DNA of 64,000 bases from Gammaproteobacteria bacterium. Its GTDB lineage: Bacteria; Pseudomonadota; Gammaproteobacteria; AKS1. The position numbers and the translations under genes were made by a program. This document shows, one piece after another, positions 7,360 to 61,624 of this stretch; position 1 is the first letter of the stretch; each line of letters begins with the position of its first letter. The notes under the pieces were generated by a model. That model searched no databases, was not told where the DNA came from, and was given only the letters and a program-made list of their open reading frames with translations. The stretch lies in contig JALTKS010000101.1 in assembly GCA_027006175.1 (NCBI GenBank), positions 55,596 to 119,595 on the forward strand. Direction: 5' to 3'.

Positions 7360-9839
<2,480 letters not shown>

Positions 9840-11323: not shown

Positions 11324-12283
11324 TTATTGTTCCTGATAATTACCGATGCTTGATAGACGTTCGTAACGTTGCTCCAACAAACGATCAATTGGCGTACGTG
11401 CCATCGCATCGAGCGATTCAATAAGTGAGTGTTTGAGGGTTCGCGCCATGGTATCCATGTCACGATGAGCACCGCCTAACGGTTCAGGAATAATGGAATC
11501 GATTAATTCCAGTTCTTTTAAACGTTCAGCAGTGATACCCATAGCTTCCGCTGCATCAGAGGCTTTTTCTGCACTCTTCCATAAAATGGAAGCACAGCCT
11601 TCTGGCGAGATCACCGAGTACGTGCTGTACTGCAACATGTTCAAGCGATCACCAACACCAATAGCAAGTGCGCCACCTGAACCACCTTCACCGATCACGG
11701 TACAAATAATCGGTGTCTTTAAGTCGGCAAGTACAAACAGGTTACGTGCAATCGCTTCACTTTGACCGCGTTCTTCCGCACCGATTCCAGGATATGCGCC
11801 GGGAGTATCAATAAATGTTAAAACTGGCAATGAAAAACGTTCTGCCATTTGCATTAAACGCAGCGCTTTACGATAACCTTCTGGTCGAGGCATTCCAAAG
11901 TTACGTTTAATCTTTTCTTTGGTGTCACGTCCTTTTTGCTGACCAATCACCATCACAGGTCGATCATCAATACGCGCAATCCCCCCCACAATGGCATGGT
12001 CATCTGCGTAGGCACGATCACCATGCAGTTCTTCAAAGTCATCAAAGATACGTTCAATATAATCCAAGGTATAAGGGCGTTGAGGATGACGAGCGAGTTG
12101 AGAAACCTGCCAGGCATCAAGACCACTAAAAATAGATTCTGTCAGCGTTCGACTCTTCTCTTGCAGGCGCTGGATTTCATCACTGATATTAATTTCAGTG
12201 TCATCCCCTACATAGCGAAGCTCTTCGATTTTAGCTTCAAGTTCAGCGATAGGCTGTTCAAATTCAAGAAAATTCATGTCCAT
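11324..12283 (-). CDS. accA: Acetyl-CoA carboxylase carboxyltransferase subunit alpha
   Basis: [58 protein letters not shown]. Confidence 0.99.
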
Positions 12284-51862: not shown

Positions 51863-52924
51863 TTAAGCAATTGCCTCTTCCGCCTCATCATCCGCCTCAA
51901 CTTCGGCAGACTTTACTGCAGCATCTTTGCCTGGCAGCAATTTCGTGCGGATTTGATTCTCGATATCATCAGCAATATCGGGGTTCTCTTTCAGGAAATT
52001 ACGCACATTATCCTTACCTTGACCAATGCGCTCACCGTTATAACTGTACCATGCGCCAGCTTTATCAACGATTTCTTCCTTCACACCAATATCAATCAGC
52101 TCGCCTTCATGCGAAACCCCTTCGCCATAGAGAATATCAAACACAGTCTGTTTGAATGGTGGTGCAACCTTGTTTTTCACCACTTTCACCCGTGTTTCAT
52201 TACCTAAAATCTCGTCACCCTTCTTAATCGCACCAATACGGCGAATATCTAAACGAACCGAAGCATAGAATTTAAGCGCATTACCACCGGTAGTGGTTTC
52301 AGGGTTACCGAACATGACACCAATCTTCATACGAAGCTGGTTAATGAAAATCACCATGGTATTTGAACGTTTAATATTGGCCGTCAGTTTACGTAGCGCC
52401 TGTGACATCAAACGTGCCTGCAGCCCCATATGGGAATCACCCATGTCTCCTTCAATCTCAGCTTTGGGTGTTAACGCGGCTACGGAATCGACCACCAAAA
52501 CATCAACTGCACCAGAACGTACTAACATATCAGTGATTTCTAAAGCTTGCTCACCTGTATCTGGCTGTGAAACCAATAAATCATCGACGTTTACGCCGAG
52601 CTTTTCAGCATAAGTCGGGTCTAGCGCATGCTCCGCATCAACAAAGGCACACGTGCCACCCGCTTTCTGTGCCTGCGCAATTACATGCAGGGTCATGGTG
52701 GTTTTACCTGATGATTCAGGTCCGTAAATTTCAATTACACGCCCTTTCGGTAAGCCACCGACCCCAAGCGCCAGATCCAGACCAATTGAGCCTGTTGAAA
52801 CAACCTCAATATCATTATTAATACCGTCTTCACCCAAACGCATCACCGAGCCTTTACCGAACTGTTTCTCGATTTGCCCGAGTGCGGCAGCAAGTGCCTT
52901 ATCTTTTTGATCTTCTTTTGCCAT
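51863..52924 (-). CDS. recA: Recombinase RecA
   Basis: [19 protein letters not shown] Walker A; full-length RecA. Confidence 0.99.
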
Positions 52925-52967
52925 GGTGCTTCTCCAATGTACTTCGTTATTAATGTTATGTGTTCTG

Positions 52968-52983
52968 GCTGCTTTGTAGCAGC
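52968..52983. repeat. Perfect inverted repeat in recA 5' UTR / operator position
   Basis: GCTGCT-TTGT-AGCAGC, just downstream of the predicted recA transcription start. Confidence 0.85.
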
Positions 52984-52993
52984 TGATGGAAGT

Positions 52994-53022
52994 AGATTAG
53001 GTTATATAAAACACAATGTCAA
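52994..53022 (-). promoter_or_regulatory. recA sigma-70 promoter
   Basis: Minus-strand TTGACA-N17-TAATCT (-35 at 53022..53017, -10 at 52999..52994). Confidence 0.75.
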
Positions 53023-53120
53023 TACTTTTTATCATGTGCATATTTTATACTTGGTGGTAGAATTTATTTGATGTACCCCTATAATTTGTATCCATACTGG
53101 CTTTTGAATAGAGTAGAAAC

Positions 53121-54011
53121 ATGGCAACTCACTTTAAAACTGCAGCAGATATCAAACGAAATACTCGTCAGCGCCTGCAATACATTGAAATTATGGCGTT
53201 TTATACCGGTGTGGTCACACGTAGCGATGTCGCGAAAAGCTTTGGGATCTCCGATCCAGCCGCCACCAAAGACCTTAAACTCTATAGCGAGCTAGCACCG
53301 GATAACCTCAGTTACCGTCACCAGGTGTTTGGTTTCGTGCCAACTGATAACTTTCAAGCCATGTTTGCTGATTTATCGCCCGAAGTCGTTCTACCCATGA
53401 TTGCGAGTAACCTGGCGGTGGTCGCCGAGCCCATCGAAGAACAACCTATATATAGTATTGCGGTTGAGACCCTCCCCTTACCGGTACGCTTACCGAGTAA
53501 AGAAGTCCTCGCCCCGATTATTCAAGCGCTCAAACAAGGTAAACAGCTTCGCGCCAGCTACAAATCCATGTCTGAGCGTGAAGATATTCAAGACCGACTC
53601 ATTGAACCTCATGCCTTAGTGAACACGGGGCTTCGTTGGCATGTGCGCGCCTACTGCCAACAAAGTTATGAGTTTCGTGATTTTGTTTTATCGCGTTTTG
53701 TTGAATCAGAACGATTGGATCTCGCCGCTGAATCCAGCCCGATATATGACGATGACTGGACAGAAGCAATTACTTTAAAACTTTCGCCCCACCCTCAGTT
53801 AAGTGAATCAAAACGAAATAGTTTACTAACTGATTACGATGCGACTGATGATGTTATTGAATTAGATATTAGGCGTGCTTTAGTTGGTTACAGTTTACAT
53901 CGACTCTCTGTTGATACGAGCATCGATCATTCCTTAAACCCAAATGCTTACCAGTTAGTTTTATTAAATAGAGATGAAATAGAGCCATTTGCGGGCTGGG
54001 CATTTTTATAA
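53121..54011 (+). CDS. WYL-domain transcriptional regulator, CapW/BrxR-like (wHTH-WYL-WCX layout)
   Basis: wHTH TRSDVAKSFGISDPAATKDLKLYSELAPDNLSY; WYL region RLIEPHALVNTGLRWHVRAYCQQSYEFRDFVLSRF. Confidence 0.85.
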   Translation: MATHFKTAADIKRNTRQRLQYIEIMAFYTGVVTRSDVAKSFGISDPAATKDLKLYSELAPDNLSYRHQVFGFVPTDNFQAMFADLSPEVVLPMIASNLAVVAEPIEEQPIYSIAVETLPLPVRLPSKEVLAPIIQALKQGKQLRASYKSMSEREDIQDRLIEPHALVNTGLRWHVRAYCQQSYEFRDFVLSRFVESERLDLAAESSPIYDDDWTEAITLKLSPHPQLSESKRNSLLTDYDATDDVIELDIRRALVGYSLHRLSVDTSIDHSLNPNAYQLVLLNRDEIEPFAGWAFL

Positions 54012-54026
54012 AAAACCTGACCGGAT

Positions 54027-54533
54027 TTACAAAACATCAAGCCCCCCTTTCAAAGCATGCATCACCGCCTGCTTTCGTACCGCCTCACGATCACCACTGA
54101 AGCGTTGCACCTCAGTCGTTGTTTGTACACCACGCACCACACCCGCCACTTTATCTGCCAGCGACCAGGCAAACCAAACAGTTCCCACCGGCTTATCTTT
54201 AGAACCACCACCAGGTCCTGCGATACCACTGATCGACAAGCTAACACTGGCATTACTATTTGCCAACACGCCTTCTGCCAAAGAGCGTACAACCGCTTCG
54301 CTGACCTCGCCATTTTGTTCAATCACTGTAGCAGGAACACCCAACATCTGTTGTTTAGCCAGTCCGTTATAAACTACATAGCCGCGATCAAACCACTGCG
54401 AACTACCCGCCACATCAGTCAGGCATTTAGCCACCCAACCACCCGTGCAAGATTCAGCCGTGCCTAGAGAATGACCTGTTTCAATCATTTTGGCAGCAAC
54501 TTGCTCTGCTAATTGATATAATTCTGTATCCAT
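54027..54533 (-). CDS. pncC: Nicotinamide-nucleotide amidohydrolase (CinA C-terminal domain)
   Basis: GTAESCTGGWVAKCLTDVAGSSQWFDRGYVVYNGLAKQQMLGV; SGIAGPGGG. Confidence 0.96.
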   Translation of the reverse strand: MDTELYQLAEQVAAKMIETGHSLGTAESCTGGWVAKCLTDVAGSSQWFDRGYVVYNGLAKQQMLGVPATVIEQNGEVSEAVVRSLAEGVLANSNASVSLSISGIAGPGGGSKDKPVGTVWFAWSLADKVAGVVRGVQTTTEVQRFSGDREAVRKQAVMHALKGGLDVL

Positions 54534-57297: not shown

Positions 57298-59370
57298 GTG
57301 AAAATACAATTAATTAATAAATTGCCGCTCCGCTACAAATTCGTTGCCGTGGCTTTCAGTGGCATGATACTGATTGCTATTACCCTGGGGATCGCGAACA
57401 GAATTTCACTGCAAACAACTGAAGACAGATTTAATCAACAACTCATTTCCATTCAAGACCGTCTCTGGCAACGAATTCTTAAAACACAATTTGAACAACT
57501 AGAAATTGGTACAAGCAGCTTACGAAGAGAACAACGTATTCCACGTGCATTAAGCGAGCAAGATGATGATCTTGTTCGAGAACGAGCTGAAAGTATTTAT
57601 ACACGCTTACTCGGTGCAAAGATTCTTCAAAACTTACAAATCACCGATGACAAGGCTGAAATTAAATATCATTCCAGTCTCGATGAAAATAAAACCAGTA
57701 ATATGCAGGTCGTACAAACTGCTCTGAAGAATAAAAAAATCAGCAAAGATGTCGAGATTGGTGCGAATAATGAATTAAATAGTTTGGTGGCGTTCCCATT
57801 ATTCTCTAGTGGACAGCTGGTTGGTACCGCAGTGTTTAGCAACGATTTACAAAATGCCGTTGAAAGTTTTTCTAATGAGAATCAAATAGATACTTATATT
57901 GTTTCCTCTCAACAAAAACTCCTGCACAGTTCAAATACAAAACTTTATAATGAAATTTCTCCTCAACTTCCCAAGCTAGGTGAAACCTCACTCTCGCGTT
58001 ATAATCATAACGACAACTATTACTCTGTTGCTGTACAAGCAATTAATAATACAGCCAACAAGCCTATTGCCTATCTTGTAACGGCGCGAGATGTGACAGA
58101 GAGTTACTTATCAGAAAGAAATACTCAGTTCATTATTTATATAAGTATCACACTTGGCATACTCATTATTGCTACGGCATTATCCTATTTTATTTTTTAT
58201 TCGCTTCGCCCACTCAATGAACTATTAAAAACAGTACAGAGAATGCGTTCTGGTGATACAAGCGCACGTATGAAAAAACAAAACAATGATGAAATCGGCG
58301 AATTAGGTATTGCCTTTAATAAAATGGCTGATGAATTAGTTGATACGCTAGAGAAAGAAAAAAATATAAAAGAAGATCTTGAAGGTAAAATAGAAACACT
58401 GCACGAAACTGTTCAGAAAATTTCGAAAGGTGACTTAAGTGCTGAAGTAATGGCCTTTTCAGGAGACGAAGGCATTGATAAATTAGCCTCCAGTATTCAG
58501 TCGATGATTGATGGTCTTAATAAACTGGTTTCGCAAGTTCAACAAGCCGGCATTAACGTTGCAAGTTCAACCAATGAGATCGCCTCAACTGCAAAAGAGC
58601 AAGAAGCAACGGTGACTGAACAAGCAGCAACAACGAATCAAATCATGGCGACCGCTACACAAATCTCAGCAACCAGCCGTGAACTTGCCTCTACCATGCA
58701 TGAAGTCGCGAATGTTGCCGACAAAACAGCACTTTCTGCTAATGAAGGTCAGGATGCGCTTGGCAATATGGAAAACACCATGATGCAAATGAACAATGCC
58801 ACCGCCTCAATAACATCAAAATTAGCCGTGCTAAGTGAAAAAGCATCCAACATCAATACCGTGGTAACAACGATTACAAAGGTCGCAGACCAAACCAATT
58901 TACTCTCACTCAATGCGGCCATCGAAGCAGAAAAAGCCGGTGAATATGGTCTCGGCTTTGCTGTTGTTGCCACTGAAATACGCCGTCTTGCTGACCAAAC
59001 CGCTGTTGCCACATGGGACATTGAGCAAATGGTTAAGGAAATGCAATCAGCTGTGTCTGCGGGGGTGATGGGAATGGATAAATTTTCTGAAGAAGTCACA
59101 CGCGGCGTAGATGAAGTAAGACAAATCGGGGGGCAACTTGCGCAAATCATCGAAGAAGTACAAACCCTGACACCGCGATTTGACTCTGTAAATGAAGGCA
59201 TGCAATCACAATCACATGGTGCGCAACAAATATCAGTGGGAATGGTACAGCTTAACGAGGCAACGCAACAGACAGTTGAATCACTTCGCCAATCAAATTC
59301 CTCTATCAGCACCTTAAATGAGGCCGCGCAAAAACTTCAAAGCGGTGTATCTCAATTTAGAATTAAATAA
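57298..59370 (+). CDS. Methyl-accepting chemotaxis protein, WspA-like signalling domain, Cache-like periplasmic sensor, HAMP
   Basis: GTG start; two TMs; [20 protein letters not shown]; signalling core [42 protein letters not shown]. Confidence 0.93.
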
Positions 59371-59383
59371 AGCAAGGAATACC

Positions 59384-61624
59384 ATGAAATTATTTAAAAT
59401 GACACAAAACTTCTCTACTAAAAAGAAGATGTACACTGGTTTTTCAGTGGTTTTAGGGATTATGAGCATTGTGGTAGTTGTGGTACTTATCAATTTGCTG
59501 CAAGCACAACAACAAATAAAAACCATGACAACAGAGATTCAACCAGCCACGATTACATCGCTAAAATTATCCAATGATTTACAAAAAGCCATAACAGAGC
59601 TTGGCTTTTATATGTTAAGCAAAGACAAAAGCCGCAAAGAGAGTTATTTGAAAAAGATAGCAACAGCAGAAAAATCCATTGAAGAACTATCAAAAAAGAT
59701 CCATGCGAATGAAAGCAACGCATCTTTGCCCGCACTAAAGGCAATAAAAAATAATATTAAAAAATTAAAATCATCTCAGAATAAACTTTTTGATATAACA
59801 GAGAGCATTGAGAAGAACTACCCCGCTGCCTCATATACATCAAAAAACATCAACCCTATTAGTCAGAAAATATTAGCCAGTTTACAATTTGCCATCGAAT
59901 CAGAAATTGAAGAGCATCGCGACAACCCACGATTAGAAATCGTCAATTCAATTCAGGATATGCGCTACACATGGTCCCGAATTATGGGTGAACTTCGAGC
60001 TTTTATTGGCTTCCACTCACAATACAATCTTGATGCTATTGGAGATAATCTGGAGGTCTTTAATGGACTTCTGTCTAATATGCAAAACAAATATTCTGAG
60101 TCATTAACCTTCGAACAGGAAGAAGCTATTGCAAACTTTGACTCTTTAATAACCCAGTTCAACCAACAGCTGAAGAAGGTCAGTGAAATTCATCTTAGTG
60201 ATGAATGGCGACAAGATGCCTGGCTAATTAAAACAGACGTGGGCAAATTGGTTAATGCGATCAATGCTAATCTTGATATTTTAATTAACGAAAAAAACAA
60301 CCAAAGTATCTCCTATGCATCAAAACTAACATCTAATACAAGTAATACGATCTATATCGTTGTCACATTACTTCTTGTCGCCATTGCCGCGGTTGTTGCT
60401 TTGGTTTGGTTGCTAACAGCGCACATAATAAAACCGATGACAAGCGCTGTAGACAAGAGCCTTGTTAAAATAAACGACATTATGACCATGATGTCTGAAG
60501 ATAAAAACAAAAATGTTCAACTGGAAACATCCGATGATGAAATTGAAAATGTAGAAAAAACACTGTCCGTTATGACAGACACGTTAGCGGAAATCGCAGA
60601 AAACCAAATAGCAAGTACAAGTGCTTTAAAGCTGAAAATACAACGTATTAATGATGTAGTATCCCGCGCATCAAATGGTGACTTAACAGGACAACTTGAG
60701 AATTTTGATGGTAATGAGAATATCGATACGTTAGCAAGCGGTATTCAATCAATGATCGATGGGCTTAATAAGCTTGTCTCACAAGTTCAACATTCCGGCA
60801 TTCAGGTTACCAGTTCAAGTACAGAAATTGCCGCAACAGCGAGAGAACAGGAAGCCACAGTAACCGAACAAGCCGCCGCGACCAACCAGATCATGGCAAC
60901 CGCAACCCAAATATCAGCCACTAGTCGCGAACTTGCTTCCACTATGCATGAAGTTGCTGAAGTCGCCGATAAAACAACCATGTCAGCTAATGATGGTCAG
61001 GATGCGTTGGCAAACATGGAAAACACCATGATGCAAATGAATAATGCAACAGCATCAATTACTTCAAAACTTGCCGTTCTCAATGAAAAAGCAGCCAACA
61101 TTAATACGGTTGTGACAACCATTACTAAAGTTGCTGACCAAACAAACCTGTTATCGCTCAACGCCGCAATCGAAGCAGAGAAAGCCGGTGAATATGGCCT
61201 GGGGTTTGCTGTGGTAGCAACAGAAATTCGCCGTCTTGCCGACCAAACGGCAGTGGCAACATGGGATATTGAACAGATGGTCAAAGAAATGCAGTCTGCT
61301 GTGTCTGCGGGTGTAATGGGTATGGATAAGTTTTCCGAGGAAGTCACGCGGGGTGTTGATGAAGTGAGACAAATTGGCGGGCAACTAGCTCAAATCATTG
61401 AAGAAGTTCAAACCCTCACACCACGTTTTGAAGCGGTTAATGAAGGCATGCAATCACAATCACATGGTGCTCATCAAATCTCTGATGGCATGGTCCAACT
61501 TAATGAAGCAACACAACAAACAGTTGAGTCACTAAGACAGTCTGGTATTTCTATTAATACCTTAAAAGAGGCCGCTAACAAGCTGCAAAATGGTGTCTCT
61601 CAGTTCCGGGTACAAAAAGGCTAA
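59384..61624 (+). CDS. Methyl-accepting chemotaxis protein, second WspA-like receptor, long helical periplasmic domain
   Basis: ATG with SD AAGGA; signalling core nearly identical to the preceding receptor; different sensor and HAMP-like region. Confidence 0.93.

Follow-up and report, generated by a model that had tools for sequence, protein, structure and literature searches.

A CapW/BrxR-Like WYL Regulator Encoded Divergently from recA and a Gene-Dependent Repeat Array in Their Shared Promoter Region

Gene Organization at the recA Locus

The window, that is, the whole stretch of 64,000 nucleotides of gammaproteobacterial DNA that was analyzed, contains a gene for a WYL-domain regulator between recA and pncC. 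The genes concerned are as follows:

51863..52924, minus strand: recA, divergent from the WYL gene
53121..54011, plus strand: WYL regulator gene (296 aa, ATG start), whose product is composed of a wHTH domain (about aa 10-75), a WYL domain (aa 128-195) and a C-terminal WCX-like part (about aa 205-296)
54027..54533, minus strand: pncC, the usual upstream neighbor of recA

The gene order is alaS-recX-recA (minus strand), a 196-bp gap (52925-53120), the WYL open reading frame (plus strand), a 15-bp gap, pncC (minus strand), and mutS (plus strand). A sequence-only reading of this DNA had placed the WYL gene between pncC and recA, opposite in strand to both and divergent from recA, and this arrangement was confirmed by gene order and strands. 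No defense genes were found in the immediate neighborhood, which consists of alaS, recX, recA, pncC, mutS, and two chemotaxis receptor genes. These tandem receptor genes (57298-59370 and approximately 59384-61624) encode near-identical C-terminal signaling halves and differing sensory parts, and look like the product of duplication or gene conversion. Some relatives carry, between the WYL gene and pncC, a minus-strand gene that by eye resembles thpR (RNA 2',3'-cyclic phosphodiesterase), such as those at positions 8885-9430 of locus L016 and 11460-11984 of locus L060.

Homology to CapW and BrxR

The WYL domain (E = 4e-13) was the only Pfam domain in the protein. A sequence search of the PDB returned full-length matches to Stenotrophomonas maltophilia CapW (1.5e-38) and Acinetobacter BrxR (2e-38), PafBC was matched in the WYL piece only (1.5e-7), and the family-profile match to CapW/BrxR had an E value of 5e-51. 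The best fold matches of an AlphaFold2 model of the protein (mean pLDDT 82) were likewise CapW/BrxR (E about 4e-24), and PafBC and DriD matched far less well; the TM-scores of the model versus CapW/BrxR were only about 0.54, which is probably due to a differing domain orientation in the single chain and to the poorly predicted linker at residues 97-121. The protein therefore has a single-chain wHTH-WYL-WCX architecture that is homologous to CapW/BrxR from end to end, and the CapW/BrxR-like identity proposed from sequence alone is upheld by both full-length homology and fold. A PafBC orthologue was ruled out, because the WYL piece alone matched and the fold match was weaker than that to CapW/BrxR. 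Nor was a tandem or heterodimeric pair of wHTH-WYL-WCX modules found: the protein is a single module and the sole copy in the source genome.

As homodimers, CapW and BrxR repress the operon next to them (PMC9122588, PMC9122589, PMC9122601), until ssDNA is bound and they let go, as summarized in PMC13373217. Residues Y138, S140, R149, R162, and R182 of the BrxR pocket (PMC9122589) align with Y147, S149, R159, R172, and R192 of the recA-linked protein, all of which are invariant or at least 90% conserved, so that the basic WYL ligand pocket is kept; the pocket histidine H147 of BrxR is unconserved, being Q157 here. Of the CapW residues that contact DNA, R32, S42, and S47 have invariant counterparts here (R34, S44, and T49), the position of CapW Q45 is occupied by an invariant alanine, and the recognition-helix stretch is fixed as S-D-x-A-A-T in the recA-linked clade.

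Conserved Linkage to recA

A scan of species genomes with the WYL protein alone as query yielded 59 loci, and divergent recA adjoined the gene, usually at a distance of about 200 bp, in all 55 loci with sufficient contig reach. Homologues counted for linkage had at least 56% identity, mostly 57-65%. In an even sample of the class, orthologues were present in 25 of 369 genomes, scattered patchily over many families, and recA lay beside the WYL gene in each of the 22 loci examined. Family and order searches of two densely sampled lineages detected the gene in 21/53 and 17/24 genomes, with recA next door in all 33 readable loci and in one more locus reached via recA; locus counts of the separate searches overlap, since some genomes were reached twice. 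The gene-recA pair occurs in many gamma- and betaproteobacteria, and its recurrence in every independent locus that could be read is more than chance would give. Three genomes of carrier genera that seemingly lacked the gene (G459, G473, and G488) had no match to recA either, and hence the locus is probably missing from these assemblies. In genome G450, the recA-WYL locus was present on two contigs (L230 and L234), possibly as an assembly duplicate.

A phylogenetic tree separated the 56 recA-linked proteins, as one group (support 99/98), from ten CapW-like homologues that do not adjoin recA, although the rooting is unsettled. Five plasmid homologues were inspected and none was beside recA; one lay by the BREX-3 gene brxF and another by a DUF262 gene. 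Within the recA-linked clade, no unlinked copy was seen in the loci examined, and the neighbor in every readable locus was recA rather than an anti-phage system. The distances of the WYL proteins correlated with those of RecA (Mantel r = 0.61), which suggests that the pair was mostly inherited together. The sequence-only reading had staked its proposal on conserved recA linkage, and this linkage proved universal in the orthologous clade and absent from the unlinked CapW-like homologues examined; a recent insertion or an accident is thus ruled out. Apart from mycobacterial PafBC, we found no WYL regulator with a link to recA described in the open-access literature, and recA is unmentioned in a survey of the BrxR family. 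The recA-linked WYL regulator is therefore likely new to the literature.

A Repeat Array in the Shared Promoter Region

The 196-bp gap is mostly unalignable between species, except for a block of about 70 bp. On the WYL strand, this block consists of approximately four TA-N5-TA units at offsets of 18, 18, and 17 bp; shifted by 18 bp, the block matches itself at 0.52, as against about 0.3-0.38 for neighboring shifts. Together with promoter elements inferred from the sequence, the units are arranged as follows:

52994..52999, minus strand: inferred recA -10 (TAATCT)
53005..53022, plus strand: array unit R0, within the recA -35/-10 spacer; the weakest unit in the window
53017..53022, minus strand: inferred recA -35 (TTGACA), with a 17-bp spacer
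53023..53040, plus strand: array unit R1 (TA-N5-TA-YYA), abutting the recA -35
53041..53057, plus strand: array unit R2
53058..53075, plus strand: array unit R3, within the inferred -35/-10 spacer of the WYL promoter
53080..53085, plus strand: inferred WYL-gene -10 (TATAAT)

The recA -35 is exactly TTGACA in 80 of 90 distinct blocks, TAxxxT occupies the -10 position in about 98% of them, and conservation of the array extends across the spacer between these elements. Direct repeats dominate: the 18-bp direct period is clear over all loci, and the search for a strong palindrome common to all of them turned up none (arm agreement at best about 0.53). Inverted repeats occur in some loci only, for example L060 and L043. 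In the intergenic regions of L060 and L061, R1 and R2 together form a perfect inverted repeat, AATACTTTTTATCA-TGT-TGATAAAAAGTATT, which is nearer to the BrxR operator style. An RNA element was also considered, and the search gave no Rfam match.

The array depends on the presence of the gene. Where the gene is present, the R1 motif was found upstream of recA in 113/113 cases (90 distinct blocks); where the gene is absent, it was found in 0/46, and these 46 include 22 from the same two families as the carriers. In these gene-free same-family relatives (the L250-L275 set), recA mostly has a different promoter, which lacks TTGACA and carries an extended -10 of the form TGTGGGATAAT. One locus listed as gene-free (L269, genome G443) possessed the motif, and the beginning of the gene, truncated by the end of the contig, then came to light. 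When applied to distinct sequences, Fisher's test gave 2e-37; because related genomes are non-independent, we rely on the within-family contrast instead. With a model of the block, each of 16/16 carrier genomes gave a single strong match, located at recA, whereas 8 non-carriers gave none, and the target hence looks dedicated. No other significant whole-array site was detected in the 16 genomes, which argues against a wider regulon; individual units are too degenerate for such a search.

LexA in Carrier Genomes

recA is a textbook LexA target. Simple loss of LexA is ruled out as a general account, since a LexA-like protein was found over the cut-off in 38/50 carriers, including the genome of the window. 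In the source genome, the lexA-like gene is the first of an operon that also contains a Y-family polymerase gene (L091 1465-3399, contig C46), and the only perfect GTTCTC-N5-GTTCTC, a box of the GTTC-N7-GTTC type, precedes lexA. This box type is known from alphaproteobacteria and occurs here in a gammaproteobacterium. Among 79 recA-WYL intergenic regions, GTTC-N7-GTTC was absent, and the Escherichia coli-type box CTGT-N8-ACAG scored no better than in shuffled sequences at these gaps. With neither type of LexA box standing out at recA, the gene appears, as judged from its promoter sequence, to lie outside the LexA regulon in carriers. About seven Thiobacillus/Hydrogenophilaceae-type carriers (L025, L028, L031, L035, L043, L049, and L059), mostly incomplete assemblies, had no LexA match over the family cut-off.

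Proposed Regulation of recA

The WYL protein very probably controls recA, and this proposal of the sequence-only reading is backed by the operator-like, gene-dependent array conserved in the recA promoter as well as by linkage. WYL-type control of recA is supported, with CapW/BrxR rather than PafBC as the nearest relative. Building on the homology, the linkage, the dependence of the array on the gene, the uniqueness of the array, and the lack of recognizable LexA boxes, each supported above, we infer DNA binding, repression, and an ssDNA signal. A dimer of the protein, or several dimers, would bind the array of 18-bp-spaced units between the two genes, and because R0 and R1 lie in and beside the recA core promoter and R3 in the WYL promoter, binding would most likely repress both genes. 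ssDNA arising from damage, stalled forks, or phage infection would then enter the WYL pocket, the ssDNA-bound protein would leave the DNA, and recA would rise under LexA-independent control. We assign a probability of about 0.6 to this reading, in which the protein would be a dedicated local repressor of recA and of its own gene, released by ssDNA by analogy with what has been published for CapW.

The consensus TTGACA and 17-bp spacer of the recA promoter would suit such a repressor. What may count against it is that R1 and R2, upstream of the -35, also occupy an activator position, that the array would be an operator of mainly direct repeats, unlike those published for CapW/BrxR, that BrxR H147 is replaced by Q157, and that most carriers have LexA-like proteins. 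The same regulator and array could instead activate recA, with the ssDNA-bound protein at R1-R3 recruiting RNA polymerase as DriD and PafBC do. Activators commonly bind where R1-R3 lie, about 36 to 88 bp ahead of the inferred recA start, and DriD and PafBC, albeit weaker fold matches, are described in PMC12340889 and PMC11804915 as ssDNA-triggered WYL activators of damage genes. Nevertheless, the protein is much closer to CapW/BrxR, which repress, a near-consensus -35 with good spacing needs no activator, and R0 is inside the recA core promoter, so that activation seems unlikely, if still to be reckoned with. Since CapW and BrxR are the nearest relatives, the ssDNA-released repressor is a better model than a PafBC-type activator.

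Two further explanations would leave recA unregulated by the protein. The block might combine an autoregulatory operator with a strong recA promoter bearing an A-tract UP element; R3 overlaps the promoter of the WYL gene, and A/T tracts upstream of a -35 can serve as an UP element. This explanation is improbable, however, as the conserved stretch spans the recA -35/-10 spacer, relatives of the same family that have no WYL gene are devoid of the block and drive recA from another promoter, and the linkage to recA would be left unexplained. It is more improbable still, to the point of being hardly credible, that the gene is a passenger linked to the recA promoter without function, through shared descent from one transfer or ancestor. 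The single clade and the tracking of RecA distances indicate that vertical descent explains part of the linkage, but the array, unlike the rest of the gap, is near-fixed across WYL proteins that have drifted apart to about 60% identity, and the clade has no unlinked copy among the loci seen.

We see roughly even odds that recA passed, in several lineages of gamma- and betaproteobacteria, from the control of LexA to that of a dedicated ssDNA-sensing WYL repressor recruited from a family of phage-defense regulators. If true, the ssDNA that is RecA's own substrate would directly trigger recA, with no LexA cleavage needed, and a phage-defense-type sensor would be seen in a housekeeping role. Regulation of recA by a protein of another family, fixed throughout a lineage, would amount to a second wiring of the bacterial damage response, and would help explain recA induction in species whose recA has no LexA box. 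With one protein, one putative operator array, and one target, the locus offers a ready test system.

Comparison with Known Regulators

The proposed control resembles that of recA by LexA in being of the repressor type, with an operator at core promoter elements, and differs from it in that the WYL protein is unrelated to LexA and without an S24 protease, and in that these recA promoters have no LexA box. PafBC of mycobacteria shares the WYL domain and provides LexA-independent control of damage genes, recA among them; it is, however, a double-module or heterodimeric activator that acts by sigma adaptation, and its sequence match is confined to the WYL piece. DriD of Caulobacter shares the WYL/WCX fold and the DNA-damage theme, but its fold match is weak (E about 1e-7 to 1e-6, 12-14% identity), and it is an activator with several target promoters. 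CapW of CBASS and BrxR of BREX differ from the recA-linked protein, which belongs to a distinct clade, in that its inferred target is the housekeeping gene recA with no defense operon adjoining, and in that the operators published for them are palindromic or inverted-repeat sequences that often cover the -10, the array described here being composed mainly of direct repeats at 18 bp. They share with it full-length wHTH-WYL-WCX homology, the conserved pocket, a gene divergent from its target, and an operator, putative in the present case, within the shared promoter region.
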